From positions 8,578,251-8,642,250 of the forward strand of contig NC_049985.1 of assembly GCF_000003815.2 (NCBI RefSeq): 64,000 nucleotides of DNA, written 5' to 3'. Positions 39,381-62,898 of this stretch are shown here, in pieces. Source of the stretch: Branchiostoma floridae. Taxonomy: Eukaryota; Chordata; Leptocardii; Amphioxiformes; Branchiostomatidae. The notes below the pieces were generated by a model. That model made no database searches and had not been told where the DNA came from. It worked only from the letters and a program-made list of their open reading frames with translations. Each line of letters begins with the position of its first letter. The stretch's first letter is position 1. Position numbers and translations under genes: made by a program.

Positions 39381-39480
39381 AGTCAAGATGGAAACCCTCA
39401 GGGGCAGACGAGTAACTCTGCCACATGCGAACCGAACCTTCTACAGCCTACCCACCGCACTGCCGACTGCACACACCAGG

Positions 39481-39723
39481 ATGACGACCGAGGATCGAGA
39501 GAAACTCATGAAATACGTGGACGAAAGTTTAATCGGGCGGGACCGGGTGTTTGCCGGTCCGTTCGGCCCACGCCGAGGTACCGGCACGTTGACGTTGTGG
39601 TCTCTGGAGGGGTATTTTTGTCACATTTCCCACGAAATTTTCTGTGTTATACTTTTTTCAATGTGACCATATTCTTTTCTTTCACATTACAGTTACCTAC
39701 TGTGACTACACTGCTTCTGGAAG
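39481..39723 (+). CDS. First two exons of the fusion gene: desulfurase N-terminus
   Basis: Exon 1 (39481-39577) encodes MTTEDREKLM...GPFGPRR and exon 2, only 31 nt (39693-39723), encodes VTYCDYTASG. GPFGPRR followed by a Y-x-DYTASG motif is characteristic of this subgroup of class V aminotransferases. The ATG at 39481 has a good context (A at -3). An in-frame ATG at 39388 would add 31 mostly basic and hydroxylated residues, so the start is not certain. Confidence 0.85.
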
Positions 39724-42700
39724 GTGAGAGCTTTTTAAAATCACATCAAGGATATTGATTGATTGATATGTGCGCGTGTGTGTGTGTGTGTGTGTGTGTG
39801 TTTGCATGGTTTTGTGTACCATTTGTGTAGGGGGTGTGTTGGCTCACCTACATCGTGCTAGCGCTGGAGCCGAAGCATAAGCCCCAAGTTATAGTCTGGC
39901 TTGCAGAGATACAAATTAGTGGCTTGGGGATGTCAAATCTTCACAGAAACTTCTTGTAGGGGGCCATATGTAACTAGTGGTTCAACTTGAAGTTGTAGCT
40001 GGATGCCTGATACAAGCCATCTTGATTAAGCGAACAAAGTAAAAAAGTAACGTTATGTCTCATAGTCATACGCCTCAAGAAAAAAAAAAAACATAGCTAC
40101 ACAAGATCGCTTACGTCAACCATCCAGCTGTACAGAGGCTGCATGTACGTCAGGCATCGAGCTATGTCTTTTTTCTTGAGGCGTAGCGAGCAATTTAGCC
40201 ATTCACCTTTATAATCAAATCTGGCCTGCTCTAATTCAACACTAAGCATTGTCAGTAAACTACGCACAGGGCATGTTTAGTTGATTTAATTATTCGTAAC
40301 ACATTGTTCACACAATCATAGAATTTATTCTCAAGCACACACATACTCACTGTCTGGTTTAGCATTATTGACATTTCTCTAGTGGAAAGCCAGATTGCCC
40401 CAAAGTCACAACAAAATGTCTTGTTGTTTGCAGCCTATTTTTACCAGGCAATTTACCTATGATTATGAATACATGAATACACCAGGACGATCAATTGACT
40501 CCTTTTTACAACTCTTAACCATTGTCAGCCCTTCTGAATGTACAGTTAAACATTTTTGGTTCTCCTAAAATCTAACGTGTTTATCCTTCCCCTCAAAAAA
40601 TATTTCACAATCAGGGATTGAAATACTTTATTTTGCTACATGCAAACTTGCAAGTTGGCAAGAATTTTACGTGCAATTTGAAAAGTTTACATGCAAAATA
40701 CAACTAGTCTATACTGCCATGTTCTAGCTAGCATCCATCATTTGGCGGAATTTTGCTGCTCTGGACGGATAATGATTTTTCCTATTCTGTTACTTTTGAA
40801 AATTTGACGGACAAAAATCGGCACATGAAAATTCAGACAGAACTTGAAATTTTGGAAAGATATCCACATAATCAGCATGTAAGTTTGCAGCAAAGCCAAA
40901 TTTGATTATTTATAACACCTACTGACGACTGGTGACAATCCTTGTAAGACAAACAACGAGGCACCATGGCCTCAGTATTTCTACTATAGGCCAGGCATTT
41001 TCAACATGCAAGATTGCAAGTTCAGAATATTTTTACATGCAAATCTAAAAAATTACATGCAAATTGCAAGTTAACTACCGGTATGTGTATTTCGAACCCT
41101 GACAATAAGGTCGCTATTTGAAAGGTTCATCACCTTTGGCAATGTGGAACAGCAAAAGTAAGGGTAATATATACTAGTGACTTGATAGGTAAAGGTGTTA
41201 CATGTTGCAACCCAACCAGGGCCACTTTTATTTGTTGTGGTTGCATACCTACATGTTTACTACCAATGAAGTCCCTCATAAATTTCTCCAGGTTGTTTGG
41301 GTGACAATAACCTGGATACCAGACCCTTAGCTTGATCTTAATATCTATCGTGCTGGGTCTAACTCAGTTGGCCTGTGTAGGCCCTGGAAATAGTCTGGCA
41401 TCCAGGCTAGGGGGACAAAATAGACGTGAAAATTTGCCTTCAGACTCATCTCTATGATGTAGGAGTCAGCCTGTCTGGCAGGTTGAGATTTGTCCATTCC
41501 TTGATGTCGGCCTGTAGGTTTTTCTTTGTTGCCTCTGTCGTCACCCTCCTTCCAGAGACTGCCCTCCAGGATTGTCTTACTAGTTAGACAGGCTGTGGTG
41601 GTGTCACCTGGCTTAACCACTGGAGCTTGGGTCTCTTGACTTTTGCCACAGTGGTTCCTGGGGCCATCGCTGCTTGGTACTTTTCCCCTCACATGATTCA
41701 TGTATGTGGTCAGGGACCCGTGGGTACTGGTAGAAAATTCAGGTCCAGGTCCGGTTCAGGTCCTGAGAGATGATCAGGCCCAGGGTCAAACCTGAACCTG
41801 GACTTGATTGTCTGTGGAAACTTGTGAATTTGCAATATTCAGACCAATGGTCCATTTCGCTATAGAGGACTCTGTTTGGTGGAGTATTCAAGTTCCAAAA
41901 TCCTATCTTCATGTAAACAAGGCTAACTGCCTCTGTACGTTTGACTGTAGAAATGACTACTAGTATATTTTTACTCTAAATGAAAGAAGACTCTAATCTA
42001 CTTAGCTATGTTATTTTCTTGGACTGGTAAACACCAAAATGTGTGGAAGCCTGGCAATAAAGATGTAGTGTGTTCATATTCAAATTGGTCCAAATTTTTC
42101 AGACCAGGCCAAGAAGAAAAAAACAGTTTTGGAGCAGTATGATGTAAGGTCCCCACCCCTATAGGTGATGCATACTGCATGGTAGTTTTAGCATGCATTT
42201 CACTTCGAATTCCTGGATTTTTCTGCTCCATCTCTTCCAACAGCATCCAAGTATTACAGCCATATACACTGACTGGGATTTGGATGTCTGGCAAATCTGA
42301 TGTTGATGTTTTCCAATGAAACCTTGTTTGTGTAATGACTTATGTGATATTGATTTTTTGGACCATACAATTCAATTTGTTGGGTCACAGATTTTTTAAA
42401 GCAAAAATGTTGCGATCGGACATCATAAATGCAATGGGCAGGGAGGAAAACTTGAATATGTCCATGTCCACTGCATAAACCTGAGTACACCAAAACACAC
42501 ACCTGCAGGCTTTATGTTCATGATGTTTTTCCAGTTAAGAATATCTTTTTTTTTATTTATAAAAAAATCTGTGAACCAAGAAATTTAACTGGTGTATTGA
42601 TTTGGAAAGAGATAACATTTGTCAACTACTCAAGACTGAATACCGGATGCCCCTTTCTGCATGTGTGTTGCATTTTGCCCAGATTCATGAACCCTGGGTG

Positions 42701-45700
42701 GTGTGGGGTTCAAGTTTATTTTTCTTCCTTACGTCATAACCTTGAAGTTGCTATGACGTAAACTTGTTAGGTAGTGACCACTGAGTTTAAGAAAACACTA
42801 CAGAAGAGATTTGTTTGACATACTACAAGTTTGCCACATGTGCACTGAAAAGGACCATCCATTATTTTCGATTGCCTGGAATTCTGCCAAAGCCCAAAGA
42901 TATAGGACTTTCCCCATATAAAATGTGTGTTATTTGGGTAGAAAAGACTACCAGTTGAAATTGATCATGCTGACAACAACCTTACTTGTATAATCAATGA
43001 AAAAACATAAAAGAAGAAATTTTGAAAAAGCTCTGAATTTTTCACAGTGGTAAGCACTTCAGTCTCCAAACTATAGTTCAAGTTCTTGTACTATGGCTCC
43101 CACATGGAGTCTGTTTTTCCTCCAATTAGAATTTTTTGTAGACATTTCTGATAGAAGCTAAGGTGAAGTTTGTGTTTTGATGTCTGCCCAGCAGAGCCGT
43201 CCTGTCGACCCATGCTGGCTAGCTGGTCCAGAGCCAGATAGAATTTCCTGACTTGAACTTTTGCAGGCTTCCTGTGGTTTGGTAAATGGGAAATATATTT
43301 ACCTTTGCCAATGGCAACCAGCCCCAGTAGACCTTTTGCTTGCGTGGACAGGGCAGCATGGGGAATTCCTGGTGCACTGCTGTTGGTATTTAGTGCTTGA
43401 AGTTGCTCCCTAGCCTTGAACTTAATGCCCGGCCTGTTGTTTCTGGAAGTGATTTGGTCACATGAAGGAAAGGTGTCTAATTGTTGAAGGAAAAACAGGG
43501 ATGATATCTGAATTCTTGACGTCACTCGATGACATCAATGCCTTCTTTTTGGTACGCTGGCAGGAAGTCGCAGTGACGCCAGTCCTGAGTCCCAGGTGAT
43601 TAAGGCAGTGAACTTGACAGGAATGTTAGATACTGGGACACGGGGGAAACAAACAGTTACTGTAGTCAAGCCTGGCCTGCCAACCACCTGCAGGGTTGCA
43701 ACAAGTTGTAAAAAATTCACTGGCTCTATAGGGCAAGTACATGGTCATTTCCAATGGCCTTAAACAACTGGCCTGAAATTTAGATGACATATTTCTCTGA
43801 AAAATAGGACAGAACACCTTAAGTCCCAGTGATTGATAAAACCAAACACAAAGCACTGTATTTACCAAGATAAGGGTATTTGAGGATTTGTAAATTTTGC
43901 AATATCTGAACGATGGTGTAGGGCAACCAGAAAATCATTGAGAAGGGTATCCACTGGCTTGGTCAGCACTTTCACCTGCCTGGGGCAATCGGTCAAATGA
44001 ACTTGTCCCACCCTAATCAACCAGTGCAGCCCACCATGCTCAGTCGTGACATAGGCCACATTAGAACAGTCCCATCCAATCTGTACATGTACTTAATTAA
44101 AGAACCTCTGCTAACCTCTTATCTATCAGCAACCACCATTTTTAGTTCCCATGAGACATTAATGCTTCAATCAACAAGCAAAATTGGTGATGTTTCATAC
44201 ACAAGACAAAATCAGTAATTTTGTGCAAAAGTCAAATGGAACCAGTTGGGGTTTTGACATCAAATAAAATGGAAATCACTTTTTTTTGCCATTTGTCTTA
44301 TGTTATGGCTACAGGTATTTAATGCCCAGCCTTACTTTTGTAACACAAGCCAGGCCTGATGTTTGTATCCCCTTGATAGCAAGATATTATGACATGACGA
44401 AAGGTATCGAAAAAATGTTCACAAAGAACAGGGAGGAATGTCTCCAGTGCCTTTGGTGTGGTCAAGGCCAAAAGAGACATATGGACTATGTCTGAGGCCT
44501 GACACTGTGAGTCTTGTTCTTAACCATGTCTTAGGTCTAAGTCTTTGCTCTAAATAAGAAGCTTAGTGGAAGATTGGTACACATACTGGGCGATCATATG
44601 CCCTAAGCAGCAAAGACCCACCCAAATGCATGATCACATATGAACACTGATTTTTCTTGCATGATGCAGTGTTAGTAGATAGTGGTCTGAGCAAGGAGCT
44701 TTCATCAGACCTTGGCCTGAGTAAACACATGTAGATGAATGTAGAGGAAATTGCAAAATATAGTGGACAGATCTGTCTCGCTGTCTCCGGCTTAAAATTT
44801 TTTCCATCCCACTCATTGTTTAGGGGCTCATGGTATGTGAAATCTGTCACTTTACATTTTCATCAATTTTGAGCGATGAAGATCGGACTTTTGGGACAGA
44901 CTGAGTGAAACTATTTTCCATTCCAACAAACAAATTTCTGTCCTGGAATGGAAGGACAGGTCCTGGAGATTCTGTATGTGGAATACATGCAAAATACCTA
45001 TCATACATTTATTTGTAGGGTCATCTTCTCAGCTATATTGTTTGTTGACTACATCACATGTAAGTTGTCAGAGTTGTATACAATAAATAAACTACTAGAC
45101 ATATAAATAAATAGACTGAGGTCACCTGACTTGTATTTCACTAAATTTTCAGCCACCTGGCCATTGTGGTCACTTTTTGATGGTCCCTTTTTGGATTTTT
45201 CTTTGACTAAAGCTCTAAGAATTGATTTGTAGCAGTCAACTGTCCCAAGCGGTCATGGTCATTGTCAGCACCATTCAGTCCCACTGACATTGCCCTGGCG
45301 CTTGGCCACTGCTTCTGTCCCAATTGGCTGTAACACTAAAGCCAAGGTGCACTCTCACTGCATGTGCGTCAAGCTTGTGTCACTGCGGGGTTTGTTCACT
45401 GCGTCACTGTTTTGTTACTTTCTCCAATTTTTTTATAATTTAGATATTGCGTAATGCGGAAGAATATGACTTAGAAGACGACAAAATACACACAAAGTAA
45501 GAAAATTAGTTCTTTATCTCTGAAATTCGGTGTGTGCCTTTTGAATCCCGCAGTGACGCAAGCGTGACACAACTGCAGTGAGAGTGCACCTTAACCTTTG
45601 ATTTTCACTCTGGATTAACAAAACTATTAGCCTCTGCTTCAACCAAACAAGTGTTTTCAGACATTTTTGCACACCAGTTGCAAACATATTCAAATATATG

Positions 45701-48700
45701 ATTTCAAGATACATGTACAGAGATCGTATGATTCATCCATACTCTGTTGCTGCTCAAAAGAAGTAACATTAATGTAATTTTTTCAACAAGTTGCCCCGAA
45801 ATCTATGCATGCAACATTTGTAACTAACTGCAAACTGGTTGTGCATGTACACTGGTCACCTTGCGTTATACATCTTTTAATGAGGTCTTTAGATGTCAAT
45901 TGGTGTCATAATGAGGCCTGGATTCCGGGCTGGGGGCCAGTTGGATCTCCTCCAGGCCTGGCTGGCCTTGAGTCTAATGGGGACAGTGTATAGCCTTGAA
46001 GGAAATATGCCTGACCCGAAGAATGTACACTGACAGGAGCCTGCTGATTAGTTCTGGGGTCATTGCAACAATGGACGCTTAGAAAGTGTGCCCTTGTACT
46101 GAGATAACCCCTCCTCAAACTGTGTCAGAAGGACAGGCTTACATATGCTCCCCCCCTCAACTGTACATGTGTCCTATGGACAAGATGGGCAAGAAAAAGA
46201 ATCCAAATGTATACACCAAAAGGGTCTTTTCCTCACGCCTAGCACAAAGATGTATGTGTAAGCTGTTGTAGATTTCCTTAAATCATCTCCAGCTATTGAT
46301 ATAGAAAATGTAGGTATGACGAAAGTGAAAGCTCGTTTGTTGCTGACGAAATCAGGTGTTAAATTGTCGGCTGCCTACGTAATGTTTCATAGTTATACTT
46401 ATAGATAAGATCTGTAAGACTTGAAAGCCTTGATTCAACATAAAAAATACACTTGCGTCACGACCCTGCAATGGTCAGGCAAGCTCTGGCTGAAAGTGTG
46501 CCCTTGTACTGAGATAACCCCTCCTCTAACTGTGTCAGAACAAGCTCCCCCTCAGTTGTGTCCCATGGACAAGATAGAAAGGTCTCAGAACTCTCATTCT
46601 TGTATTACGTAATATTTCGTAGTTATACATAAGATCTGTAAGACGTGAGAGCCTGCATTCAACATGAAGAATACACTTGCGTCACATGATGGTCAGGCGA
46701 GCTCTGGTTGATATTCGTCACTGCTGTGGGCTAATTGCATACAAAGGACAGGAAGGCCTTTTGAAGGCATTGGACTATAAATCATCTACTGTAATTTCTG
46801 TAAGAAACTGCACACTATGAAAACCTTTTACGTTTGAAGCCAATGGCCAATGTACACTACACTACAAGTACCCCAACATCTATTCATAATTATGAAAGAT
46901 AAAGGTAGCCTCATACTAGTAGCCTTTTTAAGGCCATAAGGTCATGATGAGTGTTATCCATCCCGGCTAGGTTAGGAAGCCATGCAATCCCTCTTCTTCC
47001 ACTGCCTTTCACCTCCTGTACTGAAGTCAGGTACCCATTTTTACACCTGGGTGGAGTAAGGAAGGTCATGTCAAGATGTCTTGACACAATATCTAAGCCA
47101 GGAACTCGTGACCCCACTCTGCCATTTGATGCCACACGATGGACTCACAGGGTAAATCTCAAGAAAAGTCACTGCAACAATGGATGCTTAGAAAGTCTGC
47201 CCTTGTACTGAGATAACCCCCCCTCAAACTGTGTCAGAAGGACAAGCTTACATATGCTCCCCCCCCCCCCCCTCAACTGTGTCTCTTGGACTAGATTGGC
47301 GAGGAAAGGTCTCATTCTTGTATCATTCTGAATCCGAATGTATAGATCTACATTAAAACTAAAAGAGTCTTTTCTTCCGGGAACAAAACTGTGTGTTTAA
47401 AGCTGTCATAGATTTCCTTTAATCATTTCCAGCTAATCATTTCCAGCTAATCTATGTATGATGAAAGTGAAAGCTTGTTTGTTGCTGATGAAATCAGGTA
47501 TACGTATAATTGTCGGTTGCCTACATACTTAGACCTGTAAGACCATATAAGACCTGTAAGACCTGAGAGCCTGCATTCAACATAGAAAATATACTTGTGC
47601 CACGACCCTACACTGATCAGGCGAGCTCTGGCTGATAGTCGTCACTGTTATGGGGTAATTGCATAGAAAGGACAGGCACAGACCATTAAACGTCACTAGA
47701 CTATAAATTATATACACGNNNNNNNNNNNNNNNNNNNNNNNNNNNNNNNNNNNNNNNNNNNNNNNNNNNNNNNNNNNNNNNNNNNNNNNNNNNNNNNNNN
47801 NNNNNNNNNNNNNNNNNNNNNNNNNNNNNNNNNNNNNNNNNNNNNNNNNNNNNNNNNNNNNNNNNNNNNTAGCTAGGCATCTGTTGGTTTTCCAATATAT
47901 TGATATTTCAGCCATACCATAGGTATGGTGAAATATATTGTATTCGTAATGTTTCTTCTTTCTAAAATCTTTCTTCTTTCTTGCCTTTCTTTCTCCTGTC
48001 AAATCTTCAAAACACGGTATCTCCGTTGTTCCTCAACCGAATGACTTGAAATTTGGCACAAGGGTAGAGTAGGCCAATACCCCCAGAGGTTTTTTTCATT
48101 TTTTTCATATCTGCCTTTAAAATGATTTTATTAAGGTTTTTTGGTCATCTTAAGACCAAAACTGTATATTTGGGCCCCCTGTACCCTGGTATTATAACCG
48201 AATGAGCTGAAATTTGGCACAGATGTGCCTTGATAATTCCCCCATATAAATTCAATATCACTTTTGGTGTACAGTATAACGAAATGCTTATTTTTGCGAT
48301 TTTTTGGTCATTTTTTGACCAAAAAAGGACACTTTTGGCTCCTGTACCTTGGTTTTAGAACCGGATGACCTAAAATTTAGTATAGGAGTGCCCTAGACAT
48401 ATGCGCACATGGATTCATTAACACTTGAGGCATACAGTACAACAAAATGCTTAATTTTGTGATTATTTGGCCATTTTATGACCAAAAAGTACACTTTTGG
48501 CTCTTGTGCTCTGGTTTTAAAACCAAATGACCTAAATTTTGGTAAAAGGGTGCACTAGATATTTATTCAAATGACACATGTATAATTTTTGTCATAGACT
48601 ACGTCAAAATGATATATTTGGGGATTTTTTTGTCATTTTCCAATAGCCAGAGGGGTCAATGACCTCAAGGTGTGCAGATTGCACCTACTGGCATATATGT

Positions 48701-51700
48701 CTATTTAATCTAATTAGATAGGTAACCAATCACTTAGCCTGAATCTATATCCTAAAGGGGGGGGGGGGGTGACAGCCAATCAGCGAGCCCGGTGTTATCT
48801 GGAAGAGTCCACTCTTACACGGAGGGGTTCATTTTTTTTTTAAATTCATCATTGGACTGGTGAAGTCTTTCAGTGGGTGTATTTTTGGACAGGTCTATTT
48901 TGCAATTTTACAGAAGGTGTACTGGAAGAGTCTATTCTCGCACGGAGGGGGGATTTTTTTAAAATTCATATTTTGGACTTTGGTGACTTCTGGTTTGTCA
49001 AAGTCTTTCAGTAGGGTTATTTTTGGACTGGTCTAATTTGCAATTTTACATGGGTGTGCTGGAAGAGTCCATTCTTGCATGGAGGGGGGCTTTTTTTAAA
49101 ATCCATTTTTTGGACTTCAGTGATTATGTCAAAGTTCTATTTTAGCGGATGTATTTTTGGTCTGCTCTTCTTTACATGGAAGAGTCCATTTTTTGCACAC
49201 GGAAGGGGGATTTTTTTCAAATTCAGTTTTGGACGGGTGATGATTCAAAATTCAATTTTTAGTGGAAGTGTTTTTAGACTGGTCTATTATACCTTTTCAT
49301 GCACTGGGACCTTTTTTGCTAAATTCAATTTTGGATTTGGTTTCTTATTCAAAAGGCCAAGGTATCAGTGGGAGTATTTCTGGACTGGTCTATTGTGCAA
49401 ATTCACATAGGGTGCACTGGAGTCCATTCTTGAACAGGGGAATTTTGTAAGATTCATTTTTGGGTTAAACCGTCATTAGTAAAACTTAAAAGTGATTTTT
49501 TAAATGGGTAATTTTGAAATAGGCTATTGTTGCATGGGGAGGGAGATGGCTGAAATATGCTGTATTTGCTCTCAAGCAAATGTCGGCCTTTCTAGTCTTA
49601 TCTCCTATTATTATGAACTGAGGGAATGAATAACATCATCTTGTACAGCCTGGTTTCCAAATGTATGACTATGAGTCTCTTCATCCTCTTGCAAGGATGG
49701 AAGGACTCTGCAGCTATGATAGGTTTTAGATGTAGATACCAAGCTACCATATTCCTCACCTTCCACAGAGACATCATCCGCAATGCTGTGAATGCAGGCG
49801 AGCATGATGCAGTCATCTTTGTTGGCAGCGGCTGTACGGGAGCCATCCACAAACTTATCCACTCACTTCACTTGGAAGAACCTCCGGTAAGATCTTACAG
49901 TAGAGTAGAGTTCCTCATACCTTGGCCAAGTAATTTTGTCACATTACTATGCAAATTCTATGCTAAGAACCCTCTTGTTAGGATGATTTGTATGAATTCA
50001 TTGTTTTTCGTAATCAGTTACATGTATGTTGGTATGTTCCACGGGGAAGGTATCACTTCTACTACCTGAACTTTTTAAGCCTGGTTGAGCTATTCTGCAA
50101 TCTGTCCTAAATAGGGGATGTGTAATACTAATAGCTACTACAGGTTCTGGAGTTTATTTCAATGTTGCAGAAAATAGAATCATCAAGCAATGACAATTTT
50201 CTGCATCCCATTCATGTTTCAGGTTGTGTTTGTTGGCCCCTTTGAGCATCATTCCAACCTGCTGCCATGGAGGGAAATTGGATCCAGGGTAAGTTTCCTT
50301 TCTAGGTAAAATGTACTGAGTAAGTCTAATACTAAGATGGATATTTACTCTAAGATAAGTCTCATCTGTGCTTGGTCCCTAGTACATTGTTAAATAAGTC
50401 CAAGGTAAGTCATACGTACTTGATTAGCAGTAAAAATGGTTAAGGATTTAAAGATAAAGAGCCACTCAAAGCCTTGTATTCTTTGCAGGTGATGCGGATT
50501 GCAGAGACAAACGAAGGGCTCCTGGACCTGGAAGACCTTGAATCAAAGCTCAAAGTATGAATTTCAGAATATCATTCAATTTATTGACAAAAATATAGTC
50601 ATACCGGTCCTTCTTGCTATATGTAAGATACACATTCAAATATTTTTCACAAAATGTATGATACCAACACAGTCCTGTTTCTACAACATGAGAGACAAAA
50701 TGAATGTAAATGAATATTAAGCAGAAACAACTAAAATCCACCCAAGTAACCCAAAATATTCCCCAAAGAAACTGAAAATTTTCATCTGAGACATGAATAG
50801 AGCTGTATGCTGAATTGATTCATATGGGATCAAACAAAATGTAACACAATGTTGTAGTCTGTTCACTCTGACATATTCTGTATGACTTTTGTTCCACCAG
50901 GCGTGGCAGTCCTCTGGCTGTCAGCTGATTGGTGCCTTCAGTGCAGCGTCCAACGTTACCGGCATCCTGACTGACACAGTCCAGACGTCTGTCCTCCTGC
51001 ACAAGTATGGTGCCATTGCTGTGTGGGACTATGCTTCTGCAGGTAGGTCCTGCTCTACCCTAAAGGCTTGACTACAGTGTTGATTTCATGGCTATTTAGG
51101 TCTAAGGTCTCACTAATGAGATTGTATGGATGACATCTGCAATTTACTTCAGTAGCTTGTTTGACATGTCGGTATAGCTTCAGGGCCCTGATCTATACAT
51201 ATGTAATTACTTATCTTGAAATTCTGTTTATAATGTTCACAATATATAGATGAAGCTTTTGATCAGCATACCCTAGTTCTACCGTTTGTACAATATTTTC
51301 TTTTCCTCTTTCGAGGGCGTATGTGGATATTGATATGAATCCAGTCGTGTCCAGGTACATGTGATTGTTCATTGTATACCATTTGCCAGTGCTGCATGTT
51401 TAAGTGTATCTCCCGGTTGAATACTGTCATGCATGCTGGTGTAGATTTTTGCATGGAGTTGAACAATTGACCTATCCCTTTATTGTCCTAGCAGATAAAG
51501 CTGATATTGATTATTCACAGTTGTATGAATCGATAACCAACATCTTGATCTTGATCATCAACACTGATACAATATATATATATATACATATATCGGATTC
51601 TTACGTAATATCTTAAGTATTGCTATGCCTGAACTGAATGCCTGACCATGAAATGTCCTGTTTTGCAGTGCTGATCAAGGACTAGGTCACAAGGATGCTG

Positions 51701-54700
51701 TGATTCTGTCTCCACACAAGTTTGTGGGAGGACCTGGGACTCCAGGTGAGGTCTACTACATAATGTTACACAAACAAAGGTCAGAGCTGTAAGTTCTGTT
51801 GAGTAACAGCAAGGATCAGAGCTGTAGCTTTAGGTGATGATGATGTGGTGGGGATCATTTGAAATGTGAATGTGGCAAAAAGAGCAGAAAAGGTCTGTTT
51901 TATTGAAGAATATTGCTGGTGTCCATTGTTGCACTGAGATAAAGAAAATTGTTTCTATACATTTTGATGGAATGTTATTTTTGTGCAGGTGTTCTGATCG
52001 CAAAGAAGTCGCTGTTCAAAAACCCTGTCCCATCAGGCTGTGGAGGAGGGTCTGTCTTCTTTGTAAGTCCATGTCATTGACTTTCATTTGACCCTACAAA
52101 TATTTCACAGCTGCAAGTCATGTCAGGAAAAACTGGTTTAGTTTTGGGTTCCCTGCACCTTGTTTGGAAGTGCAGGGGTATATTTGTAAAAATGTTTGAA
52201 TGAGTTTGAATAGAGAAAAGAATAACTCCATGATTACAAGATGGAGCGGTCTGGAAGGACAATAACCTGATGTGCACTCTTTAATACCATCTGGACACAT
52301 TGTGAGGACTACCTGACTGTTGCCTGTCTCAGTGGCAAGAATCCCAGTGGGAGTAAGATAAAAAAAACTGGATACTGCTACTATACCACTACATTCAGGG
52401 AATTTGAAAGCTTTGTCATGTGTAATTTATTGCAGTTTCTATTATGTTAATTGTCTCAGGTTTCAAGGGAGACCCATCGATACCTGCAGAATGTGGAGAC
52501 TCGTGAGGAGGGTGGCACACCTGCCATTGTGGAGTCCATCCGAGCGGGACTAGTCTTCCAGCTCAAACAGGTGGGTGTTTTTTTTCTTAAAGATTTTATT
52601 GGCTCTTTCTGTGCACAAAGTAAAGCACTTACCCGCAAGCTTTCAATCAGTCCTCTGATCCTTAAAATGAAACGAACCCTATGTTATACGAACCCTATAT
52701 AACCTACATCGACGTACCTATGTTACGTGACCTGAATTTTAATGTGATGTCAGCTACGGTTGAAAGATGACAGGCAGTTTGTAACGGCCCCGTCTCGGTT
52801 GAGGAATGATTGATGGCCTCTGATGTAGATGAACTCTTTGAAGAGTGGTGCATATTTATTGCAGTAACCTACATAGTAGAACATTTTGTAGATGGACACA
52901 GTCCGGCTCTTTCCATTCATACTGACTTCCATGTTGCAGGCCCTTGGTGCAGACTTCATCATGAGAAGGGAGCAAGAGCTCTGCAAGTAAGTCTCTTCTG
53001 ACATTGTGGAGCCAAGCTAAGTGTATCTTTCTGAGCATGTCTGTGTTTGTCTATGCCAAACAGGCTACATACTCCCTAGAACAAAATCAAATCCCTGCAG
53101 ACATTTTCCCATTCACTGTACAATGGTAATGTATAAGCTGACTCTGTGTTTGTCTCCCCAGGAAAGCCTTTGACTTCTGGTTGGGCTATCCTAACATGGT
53201 AGTGATGGATGGTACTGAGTTTGTCTGTGTTTGTCTCTCCAGGAAAGCCTTTGATTTCTGGTTGGGCTATCCTAACATGGTAGTGATGGGCAGTACAGAA
53301 GTGAAGCGCCTGCCCATCATGTCCTTCATGGTGCGCCACCCACAGTCCGGGCTCTTCCTCCACCACAACTATGTCTGTGTGCTGCTCAACGACCTGTTCG
53401 GTATCCAGGCTCGTGGGGGCTGTGCGTGTGCAGGGCCGTATGCACAGGTGAGGGAGCGTACATGTAACGCTGGTTCACCTTTATTCGCGGGGTAACCTAT
53501 ATCCGTTGTTTCAACAACCGTGGTTTCAAGTTGCAATATTTTCACAACATTTCAGTGGACCCAACATTTTCAAGATATTGCAGTTTGAAATCAGCGCCCT
53601 TAGAATTGACCCCCCTAAATACACTGTTTTAAAAAACAACAGATATAGGTTACCTCTCAAACTAATGATGCATGTACATGTGCTGGGGCTGTATGCATGT
53701 ATGATGCATTACATTACTAGTTCACCTTTAAAATATCCACCGGGTATTTAGTGATGTCAATTCGATGGAGGGTGTTTTCAAACTGCGGTGTTTTCAAATT
53801 GATTTGATATCCCTGACTAACCAGTTTTAAAAACAGAAAGAATAGGTTTCCCAACAGATAAAGGTGGACTAATGTTACTACTTACGTGTCCATCAGTATC
53901 CAGGACTATATGTATATCCTCAAGTAAAAAATTAAAGTTACCAACAGACCCACAGGTTAACATGATAAAATCCCATTGCAGTGTCAAACCCGTTACCATC
54001 CACATGTACACACAATAAACATGATGTAAAATGATCCTGTTTCGATAATGATTCTCAATATGCATGCATGCAATGCATCAAAGGTGAGACATAAACAAAA
54101 CTTGTCTAGACGTTGTTATGCAAACTTGAGGACAGAGATGATATAGAGCATGGTCAAGAAAAGAACTGTTCACCTTGGACCCTGGTTGGGCATGCGTAAT
54201 TAAAATTGTGAACCTCCTTTTTAGAGAGTACATCTACATTTCCCGGAAGGACAAACAAGCAAATTGAGTTGTATATGTATCCCCTTCTGTCTCTTGTAAA
54301 TGTGTTACATATACAATTATATAATCTGTCATATGTTCAATACCATAAGCAAGTACTTAATTTGTCAACATAACTGTTATTCTAAGTTCACAATTTAATT
54401 TCTTTGTCTTTTCTATCCAGGACTTGTTGGGAATAGATGAGGAATTAGCGAACAAAATTGAGAAATTGCTGGTTGAGGACAAGTAAGTCCCAGGTCTTCT
54501 AATTTTTCTATATGTCAGTTTTTAATTCATCATGTCAGTACTAAATTACATTCCATGGTTGTTCAAAATGCAATAGCTGCTGAACTAGGTGTTGTAAGCA
54601 TTATGAATATCTTGCCGCTCTAAAGGAAGAAATAATCAATAACTTGACTCTTTGTGTTTCACACAGGAGGCTGGATCGGGACCATCTGCGGCGGTACAAT

Positions 54701-57700
54701 GAGTTCTCTGAGAGGGAGATTCTCAGGTACAGCAATATGGAATCTGTTCTGTTTCCCAGTTTCTGAAAGTGTTAAATTTCCATCGTCTTCTTTGGATTTG
54801 GAAGCTTAGAGTCAAAAAGTAATGCCTCGAAGGGTCATTTTTTTTTGGTAATAATATGTATCTGGATGTGCAATTTAAGATAAAATTCCTTTCTTTCCTT
54901 GATGCAGGCCTGGCTTTGCTCGGTTGAACCTGCCATACTTTGCCACAGATGAATGTGTGGATTTCGTTCTGGAGGCTGTTGCTATGGTAGCCGAGCATGG
55001 CTGGAAGCTTCTGCCACAGGTAACATTACATAGAGCACCCCCCACTTTCCCAATGGGAACACTTTTCATGCAATCAACAGTTATAACCAAATTACAAACT
55101 GTACTTGATCCAGATGGTACCAACACAACAACACATTGTCTTGAGGTGATCATGATAAATGGGCAGCACAAAATGCTGCTACAAATGGCCACATGTTGAT
55201 GAGCCACTACAGACCAATCCTGACTGCCCGTCACAATAAGCAGTGCAGCCAATGATAGCATGGCAAGTAGTGGTCTGACCAGTGAGAGTGTTGCTGCTTG
55301 TCTGTCAAAGTTTTGATATAAGATAACTTAATTGGAAATTGCAATTCCAGGTGACAAGATGAGGTCAATTGGTGCTGGTTTGTACCAGTTTGCGAAGGCC
55401 TTTGCAATTTTCCAAATCTGCCACAGTCCTGTGAGATACTGCAAATGCAGATATGTTTGCGGCGGTTTTATGTTTGCAGTTTTTGCGGTGGCCACTTCAC
55501 TGCGAATTTAAAACTACCGCGGAAATTTTTTCCATGGCAGTAAGAGACTACAGTGCGTGGTGCTACCGCGAACTTAAAACCACAGCAGAAAGTCCTTTTT
55601 TTCTGCTTCAGCGAAATTAAATCCCCGCGAACTCAAATACATTGTTTCACCCGTATATTTTTGCTTGCTGTACTAACATTCTTTTTCCCCCGTGCAGTAC
55701 CTGTTCAAACCAGACACAGGTGAATGGAAGAACAGGAACCACCAGGTGTTTAAGGACAGGAAGTGGCTCGGCTCCATCTCTTACAACACGGGTCACATGA
55801 CCTTTCCTGAACCAGACACAGAGAACACAAAGGGCAAGCTTCCCAAGAGCTACAAGGTTAGAAAATAAAAAAAACAATGCTGTCTCCAGAAATTTGCTTC
55901 TTGGCACGAGAAAAATTGTCATCTGTCTTCATAATGTGACATTAATGAAAATTTTTGTAAGCTTAAAATGACAGATTTAACGATGAAATATGACCTCCCA
56001 CATAATTAGAGACTTGAGGAATACATTGAATACAATATTGTTTTGTACAATCCAAGAATGCTTTAACATAGGCGCTTGTAATCTGTGAATTTGTAAATAA
56101 TAGCAAGATGGAATGTAAGTCATATGTCTGTCTCACCTGGCACCTCTTTACTTTTTAGGAGTGTCTAGAAATGGCCAAGAAGGTCTTTGACAAGGCATCT
56201 TCGGTATGGACTGCTAAGTATTCAAATATTTTTGTAAGGAATAAGGTCTTTGGGAAGAGATCTTGATTCAGACATTGTGCTGTTAAGGACTATTATTGAT
56301 GCAGTTTGATCTTTCAGTGATTCACATGAAGCTATATGTACATGTACACTTTGGTGAACAGTAACATTGGAATGCTGATTATGCTAATCATTGAATATAA
56401 TCAACATATGATCCAAGAAATTTTGGCACTATTCTCTTACAAAGTACATGTACTCTTATAAGTAGCTCATATCAAATGGGATATCTTTGTAGAGGGCAAT
56501 AAATACATGTACTGTAGTTTCAAAATTGTATAATACAACGAATTTGATAAAGTATTTGTGGAGATATAGTTGACAGTGGATCTCTTACGTTTGGCCATTG
56601 TGATTTTCATAGCCCCGACTGCAGTTACCTGACCAAGCACTTGCTTTTGATGAAGAGGCAGAAAAGCTGAGGTGGTTCCTTCTGCCGAGTGAGGCACTGG
56701 ATCATCTGGTCTGTCCTGACAAGGATCGGTCCATCAGGTAAGGGGCACTCGTCTGCATACATACAGCAGAGTTGACCCACATGTGTATATCACAAATGAC
56801 ACCTGACTGTTATATACATTTTAATTGACTTGGCCCTAGGTAGGATAACAACAGTACTGTGAAGTAGGACACTACTTTAATCTTCTTTATTTTGAAAATA
56901 GGCAAACTTCCAGTACCATTACTGTTGCAAGAAGTGTTAAATCAGTAGTTACAGTATGCACACAGTACATGTACATGTACATTGGGACGAACTGAGAACA
57001 CAGCCCTTCCCCTACTCTAAGTCTAAGCTTTCAAAAATGTAAGCTTTTTGGATGCACCTAGATTTGTAAAACACAACACACAACTTTGAACGGAAAGTCT
57101 TGTATTGTTCATGAATATCTCTGTTGCAATTGCAGAAATCCCCCTTTCACCCCACTGAAGAGGGTGTACTCCATGCCTGAGCCCATTGAGAATGGTGAGA
57201 CCACTCCTGCACTGATCGAGGAGAGTCGTGACCGGCTGTCGTCCCCCATCCCCATGATGAAGCCCCAGGATGATGACATGGACGAGATCTCAGAGGAGGA
57301 AGACAACCTGAACCTCTTCAACATGCTGAGGAACTGGAGGGGCAGCAGTGGGAACAGGCGGGGCAGGTCAGTCATGTTTGACTTTGGTATGGCGGCCTTG
57401 AAAAGGTGTTTCTAACAAGAAACACCTGTTCTGCCATACCTTCCACTGTAATGGAGAACCTTAATGAATAAATGAAGAAGTGTTGTTGCTCACCTTCTAA
57501 GAGGAACATTGTTTTTGTCTGAGTCTGTGTGCTTGCAGCAATAAGTCATAACTCTTGACTGATTCCTTTTCTGCATTTGTCTTTACTTTGGCATGCCAGC
57601 ATTTAGTAAGGTCCAATAATACATTCTGATTTAGTGCACTATTATGTCTTTTTGTATGTTTAATGTGTGTCCAACAGTTGCTAGGATAAAAATGTGCATA

Positions 57701-60700
57701 AAAGATGCCATCTCAGGATTAGTAAGAACTTTATATGCGAGATTGTGTCTGGAAGTGGAGATTGTGCCTGCTCATTGCAAGTATGTAGAGTTGAGAAACA
57801 TGCATGGGGTACATAAAGACATTACTGTAAATGCATTTAAGTTCGCAGGGATTTAATTTTGCGGTAGCGGGAAAAGGGACTTTTCGCGGTGGATTTAAGT
57901 TTGCGGTAACACCATATACTGCAATCTAATACCATAATAGAAAAATGTTTGCGGTGGATATAAGTTCGCAGTGAAGTGGTCACTGCGAAAACCGTGAAAA
58001 TTAATCCACCGCGAACATTTCTGCATTTACAGTATATGTATGACACATACATGTTAAAAGGGTAGTGATTGGCATTGTAACAAGAGACTAAATTTAAGAA
58101 AATGTCTAAATGAGTTGGATTTGGCTTCATTTTTTGGGAAGCAGAGGAGACAAGAGTCTCCATTTGTCCATGAAAGTAGGAAAGTTGGAATAAACTCTGG
58201 TGACTTATTCAAACAATGTTGTGGTTAAATAAACAGTTGGAAGTACAAGCAGACTCATCTTCTGCAGCTTTTAATGTACCGACCATTCATGAGTATCATG
58301 CAAGCTGACAGGTATCTTGTCTTTTTAGTGGAAGCCGCAACCTGATGCGGCCAATCCCAGATGGCCACCTCAACAATCACATGACCAGCGGCCTTGTTGG
58401 TCTCGGTGGGCATCCTACCATCCACGCTCCCACCCTGAACCACACCAACCGCCGACGCAACAGTGACGGGCTGGTGGGCCGTGGAGGGCTGATCATCGGG
58501 GGTGGCCCGTATGGAACTAGTGGCAGCAGTAACGTCATCGGGACATCCCCTGGCAGAAGGAGGGCTTCGGCTTTTGTGGTTGGCACAAGAGACGTCCTTC
58601 TGCCAGAAACAGGTTAGAATGAGTATAATTCTAAGTAAATTCTTCAGGTGTTTCCCTGGAGTGAAGTGATCAGTCGCACTAAATGAAAATGAAGTACTGA
58701 ATGATTTCTAAGAAAGGACAGGATAGCTTTGCAGATATTTGATGATAAGCCATGTGCTGTGCTTGTTCAATAATGCTGAATCATCTACACATACTACTGT
58801 GACACAAAAACTTGCTTTCTGTAGATTTTAGAAGGAAGATTAAGTGTGCCTCGTCTTTAGACATGTTTGCTTCAGTACAGAGAAAAGGGTGAAGCAGTCT
58901 TTATAATGTTGCCTCTTGTGTATGGATGATTGTGAACCAGTCTGACATTTATGTTCCAACAGGCCAGAAATTGCCCATGTTCGGACGTCGAAACTCGATC
59001 GACATGCTAGACCTGCACAAGTGGGGGAAGAAGCTGCAGGATACCATGGAAGGCAGCAACGGTGGGGACAATGCTGACTGGGAGATCTGGGGATCGCTCC
59101 CCAGCAGTCGCAACAGTAGCATCGACCAGGGCGACAGCATGGCAGACAACTTCAATGAGAGGCAGGATAGTGGTGCCGAGTCTGCTTCTGATTACCGATC
59201 TGACGACAGCTCCCTGAAAGGAGACACAGAAGAAAGCAATCTCAACCAGGAGAAGAGGCTGCACATAGATCTAGAGTTGCCTGTGAACACTGAGAAAAAT
59301 GTTACAAGTGTGGAGCCCAGGTTAACGGTGATGTCAAGGGAGGAAAAGAAAACTGTACCATGTAAAGAAAGTTTGAATAATGGTCGTGCTTCCACTGAAA
59401 TGAAGAATCAGGAAGCCAGCCTATCTGTTGATACTGAAGGGACCTGTGAAAACCTGTGTATGGTCAGACAGTCAGAGAAACCCATGGAAAGAGATGCTGA
59501 AACCACTGATAGCAGAAAGTCAGATACTGGAGAAAGAAGTAACACGAAGAATAAGAAGAAACATGACCCCAACAATCCAAGATGGCATGCACCACCTAAA
59601 AGAATAATGAAACAAACAATCGAGGTAAATAGGCAATTTTGTCCATTCCATAATTTTTAGCATTCAGTAAAACAGTGTGAATTGTGGGTAATTGGTTTAT
59701 TTTGGTGGGAAGCTGCTCACACTGCCCAAGAAGACCACTTAGAGGAGTGATGAAATCTGGTCTATGTGAAAAGGTTCCTGAATGCGTGTGTCAAAAAATC
59801 ATCTAAAGGACCACCATATTTGCCAGGTTTTCCTTGGTTAGAAGTGGTCACTTTTAGTACAAATTTGATGGTATTTGTAGAAGGATCAAAGAGAAGGCAA
59901 AATGCCTTGACATGCATTTGATGCAGAAATCGTAAATTGTTAATTGTACATGACTTTTGTGTACAAAATATACTTAACGGCTATATTGTACATGTGTACA
60001 AATGCACTTAACAAGGATGTATTAATGAAATTGTTTCATTACTCAATGAATTGAGTGATGTGGAAAATTATATGTTCTCAAGAGTAACTTTGTGTAACAT
60101 TTTGATGCTGTTGCTAATTCTACAGGCCATGACAGAGTACAGTATGATCCGGGATGGGGACCGTGTGCTGCTCTGCCTGTCGGGCGGGAAGGACTCCCTG
60201 TCTCTCCTCCACACCCTCAGGCAGTACCAGTTCTTTGCCAAGAGTAAGGTCAGTGTGATCTTAATCAAGTTAAAGAGGAGATTAATGTAAAGTACTTTTC
60301 CCAAGGGCATGATATTAAGATACGTCAGGGGACAGAATCCAAGACCTCTTAATTCTGGACTAAACTTACTGTCCAAACACATATGATGGGGAAAATTGTG
60401 ACCTTCTTGTCATATGCCCCATTTTCTGACAGCCTGCCCAACCATGCAAAAATGGGCTTATGTGAAGAAGTTCACAATCTTCCCAATCAACCTCTGCTTG
60501 GAAAGTAATGCCAGACACTCTAACGCTCTGACCACAATGTGCCACGTGATTGTCACTTTGTTTTATTTGTTATCTTGTTCTTAGAACATCACATTTGAGC
60601 TGGGAGCAGTGACTGTTGACCCGCAGACTGCTTCATATGACCCCAGCCCACTCAAGAACTACCTGGCCAAACTTGGTGTGCCTTACTTTTATGAAGAGCA

Positions 60701-62732
60701 AGGTAAGACAACAAGCCACATGCATACATTTATATTGAAACATTGGACAGGTGTAGTATTAGTGCCAGCTCCTGCTGTCTTTGTTCAAGTTATTATTGGT
60801 GGTATTTAGCAAGATACAAACAAAGTTTCATTAGATATGTAAGAAATCGCAGAGTCCATCTGTCAGTGAACTGATCGTCCGACAGGATGACAAGGACAAG
60901 AAGAAGGATAATGATTTCTCAATTACATTTTCAATGGGTGGTACTCATGGTGTACGTAATCCTTGTTAAGATTTTAAAAAAATAACATTCAAACTGAACC
61001 AGAATTTGCATGTACATTGTATACCACTATTGGTATACCACTATTGCTGACTACATGTACTTTATCATTAAGAGTGATTGAAGCAGATCCGAAATGTATT
61101 GTTTTATTAAAGTATAATGGCATTTACATGTATGATGTATTTGTTTACCTTGACTTTGTTCCTCTGCAGGCATCATGGCCCAGGCTGCATCCATGCCAGT
61201 GTGCACCTCCATCTGCAGTTACTGCTCCCGTATGAAGCGAGGACGTATCTACGCCTGCGCTCGCCGTGAGGGATATAATGTGCTGGCCATGGGGCAACAT
61301 TTAGATGATTTGGCAGAAAGGTGAGGGCCAATACATTAGCAGAAGCTGACAATATTCTAGTTGTCTGTAGATCCCAATTAGTCTGTCAATATACTGATAG
61401 CATGGGGTCTATGACATGCACAGATTCTATGATGCACACTTTTATTTTCATTTCACCTGCCCACTACATTTTAATTGTCTGAGGAATGCATGCTTCTACT
61501 GGTAACCCATAGACCCAATAGCATCAATTAAGGCATACTTTTGAAAAGAGAGTTTACAAACATGTACACTTGCCATGAACACAAAAGGGAAAGTCAACTG
61601 TTTGTTATCTTCTCCAGCTTCATGATGTCTGCATTTCATAATGGGTTGCTGAGGACTATGAAGGCCAACTACACTGTCAGGTCAGTTGCCTTCCTTGTTG
61701 GCTTAAATCACAGGGAAGTTTCTTTATGTATCAAGAGTTCAAATAACCCAAACCGCCATGATATGATTAATGAAGTTTGAGAAATGAAACAATGAGCTGT
61801 TCATCTGCAATCGTCCTTCTCATTATCTTATCAAATTGCTGCATGTGTCATTAGCAATACCACACTGTAAATGTATGTGATCAACACACTGAAATTAGAT
61901 TAAACAGACATGTGCATGTTATTGCATTAGCATAGTTAGTGGATCTTTTGTACCCTTGGGGATCAAAGTGGATGTGTCTGCTCCAAGGACCTGAAGCTAC
62001 ACATGGGCCTCTGCCGTACTCCCACTGTCAGATCTCAGGTTGCATAAAATCTTAATAATGTACCAACAAATGATCAGTCTTGAGGTGCTGCCTTAAAGAG
62101 CTTTAATTCATTTCCTTTTTTCTAGGGAGGAGGACTTGAGAGTCATCCGGCCATTTGTCTATGTTAGAGAGAAAGATCTCCGCAACTTTGCTGAACAGGT
62201 ATTTAACTAACTTCTGTTGCACATCAATTTTGTTGTTGGTTGCTTACTAGTACAGTACCTTGATTGTGCAAGACAAGTGGAAGAATCTTAGTGGAAGAAA
62301 CAGTATGATTGTCTTAGTTCTTGTCAAGATTTATAATTAATTGGTAAAACATCAGGGTAATGTATTTAAACCAGAAGAATTAAGGTTCATATTGCACATA
62401 ACATGCATCTCTTTGGTGTTATATTTTGCTGCACCCCTCTGGTGAATTGACATTCTGTCCTTTTTTCCATGTTGTAGGCAAAGCTCCCGATTATCCCAGA
62501 AAACTGTCCTGCCTGTTTTGAGGCTCCCAAAGAACGTCACCGCACCAAACAGCTGCTTGCTTCCCAGGAGCTGCTATTTCCAAAACTCTTCCAGAGCCTC
62601 CTGAAGACCATGAAGCCCCTCATGGCCAGGAACAGGACTGGTCTGGAGGCACAGAGGGCCGGGCTTGGCCAGGAGGATGGGGTCATGCAGGGTCAGATGG
62701 AGGAAGATGATGATGATGGGGTGAATATCTAG
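39481..62732 (+). CDS. Fusion protein: SufS/Csd-like cysteine desulfurase + disordered linker + TtcA-like tRNA thiolase
   Basis: Visible exons: 39481-39577, 39693-39723, 49769-49886, 50223-50288, 50489-50554, 50901-51046, 51316-51354, 51669-51745, 51989-52062, 52460-52570, 52940-52986, 53243-53447, 54421-54482, 54667-54726, 54908-55019, 55698-55856, 56159-56203, 56613-56737, 57136-57366, 58329-58612, 58963-59624, 60126-60248, 60585-60702, 61170-61320, 61618-61680, 62126-62198, 62478-62732. All phases join: 1,199 visible residues. Residues 1-437 are a PLP class V aminotransferase, about 548-925 a low-complexity acidic/Ser linker, about 926-1199 a PP-loop ATPase of the TtcA family. In bacteria the two activities are separate proteins: the desulfurase takes sulfur from cysteine, and TtcA puts it on C32 of tRNA. 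An early desulfurase exon is probably missing. The 51046 donor was chosen by phase. Substrate and location in the cell are inferred. Confidence 0.9.
39773..39801. repeat. (GT)n microsatellite
   Basis: An uninterrupted run of about twelve gt units follows gcgcgt, 50 bp after exon 2 of the fusion gene. Confidence 0.9.
40069..40187. mobile_element. Short inverted-repeat element
   Basis: Tacgcctcaagaaaaaa...catagct is mirrored by agctatgtcttttttcttga...ggcgta. Arms are about 28 bp around a 60-bp loop. Confidence 0.65.
40612..41101. mobile_element. 490-bp MITE with acaat 5-bp target duplication
   Basis: Ends cagggattgaaatac and gtatttcgaaccctg are inverted, flanked by acaat at 40607-40611 and 41102-41106. 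Repeated ttacatgcaaattgcaag words lie inside. Its termini resemble those of the element at 3522-3875. Confidence 0.8.
41452..41580 (-). mobile_element. Decayed LINE tail
   Basis: On the minus strand SKTILEGSL and, after a frameshift, TKKNLQADIKEWTNLNLPD match the usual C-terminal motif of some LINEs (TILQGxxxGxRxxGRQ...WxDNIKEWT). Dead by frameshift. Confidence 0.6.
41717..41800. repeat. Decayed fragment related to the hAT-like MITE
   Basis: Gggtactggtagaaaattca followed by ggtccaggtccggttcagg resembles the terminus at 9540-9604. Confidence 0.4.
45344..45592. mobile_element. Inverted-repeat element, 249 bp
   Basis: Aaggtgcactctcactgcat at the left is mirrored by gcagtgagagtgcacctt at the right, continuing through gcgtcaagcttgtgtcactg / cagtgacgcaagcgtgacac. 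No target duplication is clear. Confidence 0.75.
46083..47718. repeat. Three direct copies of a block of up to 500 bp, with another repeat between copies 2 and 3
   Basis: Copies begin near 46083, 46493 and 47190 with agtgtgcccttgtactgaga and include gctccccccctcaactg and, in copies 1 and 3, gaaagtgaaagctcgtttgt or a close variant. The third runs into the assembly gap. Between copies 2 and 3, at 46915-47140, lies a different dispersed repeat around caggtacccatttttacacc. Confidence 0.75.
47719..47869. other. Assembly gap (151 N)
   Basis: A run of N inside the long intron of the fusion gene, at the edge of a repeat block. It is a possible hiding place for the missing desulfurase exon. Confidence 0.99.
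48005..48640. repeat. Degenerate tandem repeat, unit about 130 bp, 4-5 copies
   Basis: Each copy has an accgaatgacctaaaatttg-like word, then ttttggtcattttttgacca and acttttggctcctgtac. The first word also occurs in the foldback element at 14509-15403. Confidence 0.7.
48801..49460. repeat. Degenerate tandem repeat, unit about 120 bp, 5-6 copies
   Basis: Ggaagagtccattcttgcac, then ggaggggggatttttttaaa and atttttggactggtctattt recur in order. The Phe-rich plus-strand frame through it is a by-product. The array ends about 300 bp before exon 49769. Confidence 0.8.
49769..55019 (+). CDS. Cysteine desulfurase domain of the fusion gene (exons 3-15)
   Basis: A PLP enzyme expected to turn L-cysteine into alanine plus enzyme-bound persulfide. 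Motifs: AVIFVGSGCTGAIHKL (cofactor phosphate loop region); EHHSNLLPW (50246-50272), matching the SufS/Csd EHHAN..PW motif whose His stacks on PLP; AVWDYASAG with the Asp expected to contact the ring nitrogen; SPHKFVGG with the PLP Lys at 51718-51720; and RGGCACAGP, which aligns with R-x-G-x-x-C-A-x-P so that the second Cys (53427-53429) fits the persulfide site. The domain closes with RLNLPYFATDECVDFVLEAV. These residues point to desulfurase rather than another class V aminotransferase, but activity is inferred. Confidence 0.88.
53162..53323 (+). repeat. In-frame 81-bp tandem duplication spanning a splice acceptor and exon start
   Basis: Two copies of an acceptor followed by gaaagcctttga(c/t)ttctgg start at 53162 and 53243. 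The distance is 81 bp, a multiple of three, and the first copy is open into the second. Using the first acceptor would add 27 residues; the second agrees with the family. Confidence 0.9.
55443..55650. repeat. Diverged copy of the ctgtaaatgca element family, opposite orientation
   Basis: Contains gcaaatgcagatatgtttgc, ctaccgcgaacttaaaacca and aaatccccgcgaactcaaat, mirrored relative to 57825-58032. It lies in the intron before exon 55698. The ends are worn. Confidence 0.65.
55698..56737 (+). CDS. Post-desulfurase extension (exons 55698-55856, 56159-56203, 56613-56737)
   Basis: 110 residues following the aminotransferase fold: YLFKPDTGEW, LGSISYNTGHMTFPEPD, a Lys-rich helix KECLEMAKKVF, and FDEEAEKLRWFLLPSEAL. 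I do not recognise this as a named domain. It is compositionally ordered (aromatic and charged), unlike the linker that follows, so it may be a structural extension of the desulfurase half. Confidence 0.85.
57136..59624 (+). CDS. Disordered regulatory-looking linker (exons 57136-57366, 58329-58612, 58963-59624)
   Basis: About 390 residues joining the two enzymes: an acidic patch (DDDMDEISEEEDN), a Gly/Asn/His-rich part, then a Ser/Asp/Glu/Lys-rich part. Basophilic kinase motifs RRRNS (58450-58464), RRRAS (58555-58569) and GRRNS (58983-58997) are visible, plus DSGAES (59166-59183), which fits the DSGxxS phosphodegron of beta-TrCP. The end, PPKRIMKQTIE, already belongs to the TtcA fold, so the domain boundary lies inside the last exon. 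Confidence 0.85.
57825..58032. mobile_element. TA-target MITE (208 bp), ctgtaaatgca family
   Basis: Ends ctgtaaatgca and tgcatttacag are inverted and flanked by TA (57823-57824, 58033-58034). The inside has acttttcgcggtggattta and its partial mirror. Relatives at 38785-38879 and 55443-55650. It lies in the intron between linker exons. Confidence 0.85.
60126..62732 (+). CDS. TtcA-like PP-loop tRNA thiolase domain of the fusion gene (6 exons)
   Basis: The adenylating, Fe-S dependent family that makes 2-thiocytidine at tRNA position 32 in bacteria. Exons 60126-60248, 60585-60702, 61170-61320, 61618-61680, 62126-62198, 62478-62732. Motifs: AMTEYSMIRDGDRVLLCLSGGKDS with the PP-loop at 60180-60197; TSICSYCSRMKRGRIY with a CxxC pair (61214-61216 and 61223-61225) matching the bacterial cluster ligands; GQHLDDLAES; RPFVYVREKDLRNFAE; and IIPENCPACF with candidate third-ligand Cys at 62505-62507 or 62514-62516. 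The match is to TtcA, not to the CTU1/Ncs6 branch used by animals for U34. An acidic tail ends at TAG. Confidence 0.92.
60385..60500. repeat. Dispersed repeat fragment in a TtcA-part intron
   Basis: Gatggggaaaattgtgacct and caatcaacctctgcttggaa match the small element at 18774-18890; other parts have diverged. Confidence 0.5.
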
Positions 62733-62892: not shown

Positions 62893-62898
62893 AATAAA
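62893..62898 (+). terminator. Poly(A) signal of the fusion gene
   Basis: Canonical AATAAA 161 bp after the TAG stop, followed by a GT-rich stretch (ttttgtatgtgg). Confidence 0.65.

Follow-up and report, generated by a model that had tools for sequence, protein, structure and literature searches.

In bacteria, the desulfurase and the thiolase that make 2-thiocytidine (s2C) in tRNA are separate proteins, IscS and TtcA, and the Escherichia coli enzyme needs both IscS and a cluster held by three cysteines of its two CxxC motifs, according to the passages of PMC5372739 on this system. Fusions in which a desulfurase is tethered to a partner are also described. A natural bacterial CD-rhodanese protein has both activities (excerpt of PMC8931425), and an engineered MnmA-YrvO protein is functional in vivo (excerpt of PMC10219651). 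Here we analyze a 64,000-nucleotide stretch of the Branchiostoma floridae genome (NC_049985.1, positions 8,578,251 to 8,642,250; the window), which contains a gene model joining a pyridoxal phosphate (PLP)-dependent, cysteine-desulfurase-like domain to a TtcA domain. We lean towards one gene and a bifunctional protein, cysteine desulfurase plus TtcA, that would relay sulfur from cysteine to tRNA cytidine.

The model comprises 27 exons on the plus strand, from the ATG at 39481 to the TAG at 62732, which join into a single open frame of 3600 nt encoding 1199 residues (Table 1). The gene was rederived from the raw sequence with exon borders set by eye. This reproduced the 27 exons in one frame that a sequence-only reading made before had described, with GT-AG borders at all introns. 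At the exon 6/7 junction the frame is kept only through a weaker donor (GGTAG/GTCCTG), which gives one residue more than in the homologs. The motifs that had been quoted are all present: EHHSNLLPW, SPHKFVGG, RGGCACAGP (which fits RxGxxCAxP), SGGKDS, CSYC and IIPENCPAC. In Pfam, residues 42-359 match Aminotran_5 (E=1.1e-32), and a C-terminal segment matches ATP_bind_3 (E=2.7e-14); the same scan of the 1199 residues detects neither a MOSC nor a rhodanese domain.

The proposed relay would begin in the N-terminal PLP domain, most likely a cysteine desulfurase, where PLP would be bound by K205 and a persulfide would form on C353 with sulfur from L-cysteine. The PP-loop of the TtcA domain would activate the tRNA cytidine with ATP. 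Its cysteine pairs would hold a [4Fe-4S] cluster, which would accept the sulfur by direct transfer and hand it on to the C2 position of the cytidine, most likely C32; the product would be s2C. Across a linker of 372 residues, the desulfurase could reach the active site of TtcA while tethered to it, in place of the separate bacterial IscS. Tethering is workable, since both the CD-rhodanese and the MnmA-YrvO fusions function. A self-contained relay of this kind had already been proposed from the sequence. Of this proposal, the coherent gene model with both catalytic domains stands; the PLP half is not SufS/Csd proper, and the N-terminal domain is about 39 residues short in this assembly.

The C-terminal half had been called TtcA-type from its motifs, and profile scores bear this out. 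It reaches 201.8 bits with the NCBIfam TtcA model NF007972, far above the models for TilS N (58.3), TtuA (47.0) and NcsA (28.1), in a comparison that leaves out animal CTU1. An origin of the PP-loop half from NcsA or TtuA was set aside on these scores. The value is under the equivalog cut-off of 272 bits, as it is for three bacterial short-type proteins (207.6-211.3 bits), each the sole match in its genome. For this reason the half is, by sequence, TtcA by subtype and not by the curated cut-off. Its identity is 49.2-59.5% to 32 short-type proteins and 32.8-34.5% to 5 canonical ones. The four cysteines of the two CxxC pairs (C1035, C1038, C1125 and C1128) are invariant in all 32 short-type and all 5 canonical sequences, and SGGKDS is present in every row shown.

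A quick tree was built from the window protein, the 32 short-type and the 5 canonical sequences, with TilS, TtuA, NcsA and CTU1 left out. The TtcA half joins the short-type rows, apart from the canonical ones, with a support of 100 (SH-aLRT, an approximate likelihood-ratio test); its position at their base is poorly supported (54). Closest among the relatives found are stand-alone proteins, 244-249 residues long, from three gammaproteobacterial metagenome-assembled genomes (MAGs), of which two are Thiotrichaceae (53-56%). A search of the animal's own genome with the TtcA half matches this gene alone (E<=0.001), and the viral contigs searched contain no relative of it.

TtcA matches are present in 216 of 274 Gammaproteobacteria genomes and missing from 58. 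The short type accounts for 92 of the 216 (hand count; E<=3.0e-70, 46-100% identity to L007), which leaves 124 for the other type (first at 4.5e-49 and 40%; at most 42% identity to L007 among the matches listed), counts that are limited by MAG incompleteness and by a first-look filter. Just 3 of the 216 genomes have two TtcA matches. Short and canonical TtcA thus seem to replace each other in Gammaproteobacteria, and their rare co-occurrence suggests that the subtypes do the same job.

This pattern bears on the target of the TtcA half. It is possible, but unlikely, that a fused protein with the PLP half as sulfur donor modifies another tRNA position, or a small thio-metabolite, and not C32. 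Such a target would fit the low identity to the five canonical proteins and the score below the equivalog cut-off, and some PP-loop enzymes, for example LarE, thiolate substrates other than tRNA. It would also fit the parts of PMC7694415 and PMC5372717 that deal with s2C, where the modification is not given for eukaryotes. The near mutual exclusion of the two subtypes and the full conservation of the TtcA cysteine pairs argue against such a target.

The PLP half shares with the group II desulfurases SufS and CsdA the PLP lysine, the EHH motif and the cysteine of RxGxxCAxP, and homology to them is detectable. Its score with the SufS model TIGR01979 (NCBIfam) is 104.8 bits, so far under the cut-off of 475.1 that it is not filed as SufS. 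Unlike SufS/CsdA, its own family has RGGC(A/S)CAGPY and a longer C-terminal part. This family is that of the bacterial class V-fold PLP-dependent enzymes of Rhodococcus, Sagittula, Deinococcus and Rhizobium. The PLP half is 40.3% identical over 96% to a Rhodococcus "aminotransferase class V-fold PLP-dependent enzyme" and 34.0-42.9% identical to 24 bacterial homologs, with 50 invariant positions in the alignment. Judged by these comparisons, it is a distant SufS relative in a separate family that is seen as single genes in bacteria.

EHHSN, D169, H204, K205, C351 and C353 are invariant in all 24 bacterial homologs. We take K205 to be the PLP lysine. C353 is aligned by HMMER with the loop cysteine of SufS, which is catalytic. 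Of the SufS/Csd hallmarks claimed for this half, the lysine and the cysteine loop therefore hold; the assignment to SufS/Csd proper does not.

At the bacterial loci seen, members of this family stand alone, with neither linker nor TtcA. A gene resembling Lrp/AsnC (named from its appearance and after the L004 annotation) flanks 11 of the 24 loci, and genes for a metallo-beta-lactamase (MBL)-fold protein, TauE/SafE or an aminothiazoline-carboxylate hydrolase occur at single loci; together these hint at sulfur or amino-acid catabolism. Together with two stand-alone paralogs on C3, these neighbors are what speaks for a PLP half that is a cysteine-using catabolic or sulfide-producing enzyme and does not feed the TtcA half, the fusion being due to co-regulation or chance. 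We consider this improbable. The group II desulfurase cysteine loop is invariant, and the joining of a donor to its acceptor would be the simplest selective reason for a fusion.

Several observations weigh against the relay. The PLP family lies far below the SufS cut-off, and its desulfurase role is putative. Its matches in 23 of 398 Pseudomonadota genomes (E<=1e-40; open frames of 315-792 residues) include no TtcA fusion, the longest frame, of 792 residues, being left out of this count. No TtcA is found in the flanks of the 24 bacterial PLP loci, and no desulfurase fusion among the TtcA matches listed, where the longest frame (670 residues) is of the canonical type. The TtcA half is itself under its cut-off, and the window protein has a long branch in the tree, for which the program warns of long-branch attraction towards the canonical rows. 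As assembled, the PLP domain is incomplete. The sulfur route to the TtcA cluster is also described as unsettled in the passages of PMC5372739.

Seven short-type TtcA loci with long frames (411-621 residues) were examined, the canonical-type frame of 670 residues being left out, and none contains a desulfurase; at six of them the long frames look like spurious upstream frames. In L006-L008 there is no PLP-family match within 8 kb of TtcA, nor anywhere in these genomes in a search run without a positive control. The seventh, L072, has 382 residues upstream of its short-type TtcA in the same frame, a possible fusion or a MAG artefact. This upstream domain resembles a hexose-6-phosphate mutarotase.

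The two halves are connected by residues 547-918. This linker has no Pfam match at E<=0.1 and matches only its own gene in a genome search (E<=1). It is probably disordered, with a fraction of disorder-promoting residues of 0.69, compared with 0.57-0.58 in both domains. The start of the TtcA fold within exon 21 had been taken to exclude two neighboring genes. Neither this argument nor the exon phase is sufficient, given that intron 19 carries an in-frame read-through stop at 57413 and AATAAA at 57467, 58189 and 58228, and that an in-frame ATG at 58926 lies upstream of the exon 21 acceptor. These elements would suit two neighbors on the same strand, a PLP gene that ends at 57413, with the AATAAA at 57467, followed by a TtcA gene whose start lies in exon 20 or at ATG 58926. 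AATAAA and ATTAAA are absent from introns 18, 20, 21 and 22 by pattern scan.

To score the disputed region, we trained a codon model on 795 codons from the other 24 exons, with 500 intron-derived windows per exon length as the null. The scores per codon are 0.44 for exon 19, 0.37 for exon 20 and 0.08 for exon 21, and each exceeds those of all 500 intron windows. Reading on past exon 19 gives a low score (0.04), and between ATG 58926 and the exon 21 acceptor the sequence is intron-like (-0.09, GC 0.36). Stop-free runs of the lengths of the three exons occur at 18 of 1244, 9 of 1236 and 0 of 1182 sampled intron positions. A splice-site model was trained without the disputed sites and compared with a background of 1407 GTs and 1333 AGs. 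The donors of exons 18 and 19 outscore every background GT, so that neither of these exons resembles a last one; the donor of exon 20 is reached by 6 and that of exon 21 by 51. The acceptors of exons 20, 21 and 22 are equalled by 39, 76 and 21 background AGs.

Some of these measures count against a single gene, in addition to the signals in intron 19 and the ATG at 58926. The exon 19 acceptor is weak, equalled by 225 of the 1333 background AGs. Exon 21 resembles introns in its synonymous codon use (-0.01), and wrong frames of exons 19 and 20 also give positive scores, up to 0.24. Two genes would also agree with the single-gene relatives of each half in bacteria. In the same genome, no match to the TtcA half lies beside the two PLP paralogs on C3, and all TtcA matches are on C7 (E<=0.001). 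The coding-like exons 19-21, joined in phase, nevertheless favor one gene, as do the very strong donors that end exons 18 and 19. On this evidence both halves are very probably encoded by a single gene, two genes are a poor prospect, and a single transcript spanning both halves is likely. Intronic polyadenylation in intron 19 is possible as a minor form.

The linker contains four RRxS sites, at residues 621, 666, 701 and 727 (exons 19-21), and there are none in the remaining protein; one RRVT is found outside the linker, at residue 31. The serine of the first site is formed across the exon 19/20 border. Kinase regulation through these sites is a guess. It would form part of a bolder version of the relay, which we offer tentatively: an animal in which a functional TtcA of bacterial type is tethered to a dedicated desulfurase and makes s2C, and in which the RRxS sites could be kinase-switched. 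In that case 2-thiocytidine would be present in the tRNA of an animal.

The phase had been described as unbroken. All joins are in frame, yet the model lacks about 39 residues where exon 2 meets exon 3. Right after YCDYTASGR the bacterial homologs are longer, by 39 residues in 19 of 24 and by 22, 25, 38, 40 and 40 in the rest. A motif scan of the 10-kb intron 2 for the missing exon gave one match, which is unrelated. Two tandem paralogs of the PLP half are located elsewhere in the genome, at C3:23285857-23292663 and C3:23305642-23311123. A query with the bacterial segment finds the exon adjoining both, at C3:23292529-23292663 (E=4.4e-9) and C3:23310992-23311123 (E=7.6e-7), with no further copy in the genome up to E=10 and none on C7. 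Because the homologs and both C3 paralogs keep the exon, and an N gap sits in intron 2, it was most likely lost in the assembly gap. The true gene probably has at least 28 exons. No break had been noticed because exons 2 and 3 join in phase by chance.

Each domain is already known, as are desulfurase fusions; what appears new is the pairing in an animal. The TtcA half has the SGGKDS PP-loop and the two CxxC pairs of TtcA (tRNA-cytidine(32) 2-sulfurtransferase) of Gammaproteobacteria, but it forms the C-terminal half of a protein that begins with a desulfurase-like domain, and it belongs to an animal genome. MOCOS/ABA3 also join a desulfurase to a sulfur-using domain, MOSC. The CD-rhodanese protein does so as well (excerpt of PMC8931425), and in both cases the acceptor domain and the product differ from those of the window protein. 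MnmA-YrvO likewise tethers a tRNA thiolase to a desulfurase, but it is man-made, makes 2-thiouridine (s2U) and has the thiolase first, the reverse of the order seen here (excerpt of PMC10219651).

The earlier statement that s2C is not a standard animal tRNA modification agrees with the relevant parts of two reviews, PMC7694415 and the table of PMC5372717, which give s2C for Bacteria and Archaea only and list no human or yeast TtcA. In the sections of a plant tRNA survey that mention it, s2C is named only among bought standards (PMC10298058). Among the matches listed in a search of titles, abstracts and passages of the open-licence literature, we found no report of a desulfurase-TtcA fusion or of an animal TtcA. 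The fusion may be widespread, or already be in databases as a predicted protein. If the relay is real, animals, this lineage at the least, possess a sulfur modification of RNA that is not given for them in the cited parts of the review tables. It would come with a built-in donor, desulfurase and thiolase being on one chain. The protein would also offer a single molecule for studying the sulfur route to the TtcA cluster, called unclear in the cited passages of PMC5372739.

Table 1 Features of the fusion gene and its surroundings (window coordinates)
Feature	Position	Strand	Basis
Candidate TATA box upstream of the start codon, TATATAAA	39374..39381	+	pattern scan; function predicted
Exon 1, start codon, N-terminus of PLP domain	39481..39577	+	gene model
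Exon 2 (VTYCDYTASG)	39693..39723	+	gene model; aligned to bacterial homologs
Assembly N gap in the 10-kb intron 2, likely site of the lost exon of about 39 residues	47719..47869	.	gap in sequence; homolog alignment
Exons 3-18 with introns: remaining PLP-dependent (class V, cysteine-desulfurase-like) domain and C-terminal extension	49769..56737	+	gene model, Pfam, alignment
K205 codon in SPHKF	51718..51720	+	conserved 24/24
Codons C351-A352-C353 in RGGCACAGP	53421..53429	+	both Cys conserved 24/24
Exon 19, linker	57136..57366	+	coding score, splice-site score
Exon 20, linker	58329..58612	+	coding score, splice-site score
Exon 21, linker and first TtcA helix	58963..59624	+	HAPPKRIMKQTIE aligned to bacterial TtcA N-termini
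Exons 22-27 with introns: TtcA domain, acidic tail, stop codon	60126..62732	+	gene model, Pfam, NCBIfam, alignment
SGGKDS PP-loop	60180..60197	+	motif; alignment
First CxxC (C1035, C1038)	61214..61225	+	32/32 short-type, 5/5 canonical TtcA
Second CxxC (C1125, C1128) in PENCPAC	62505..62516	+	32/32 short-type, 5/5 canonical TtcA
AATAAA, candidate poly(A) signal of the gene	62893..62898	+	pattern scan; 161 nt past final stop

Further features of the gene were observed at its 5' end and at exon 12. Translation from an in-frame ATG at 39388 would extend the 1199-residue protein by 31 N-terminal residues, basic in character and poor in acidic ones. A short upstream open reading frame starts at ATG 39425, and its TGA overlaps the main start codon. 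The acceptor and the first part of exon 12 are duplicated in tandem and in frame (53161-53243, offset 81 nt, 72 of 85 bases alike); the first of the duplicated acceptors, if used, would add 27 residues.

Elsewhere in the window, a tandem repeat at 10029-10607 yields long open frames on both strands. Exon-like frames are located on the minus strand at 17041-17595 and 20085-20723, and they look like parts of a rhodopsin-type G-protein-coupled receptor.

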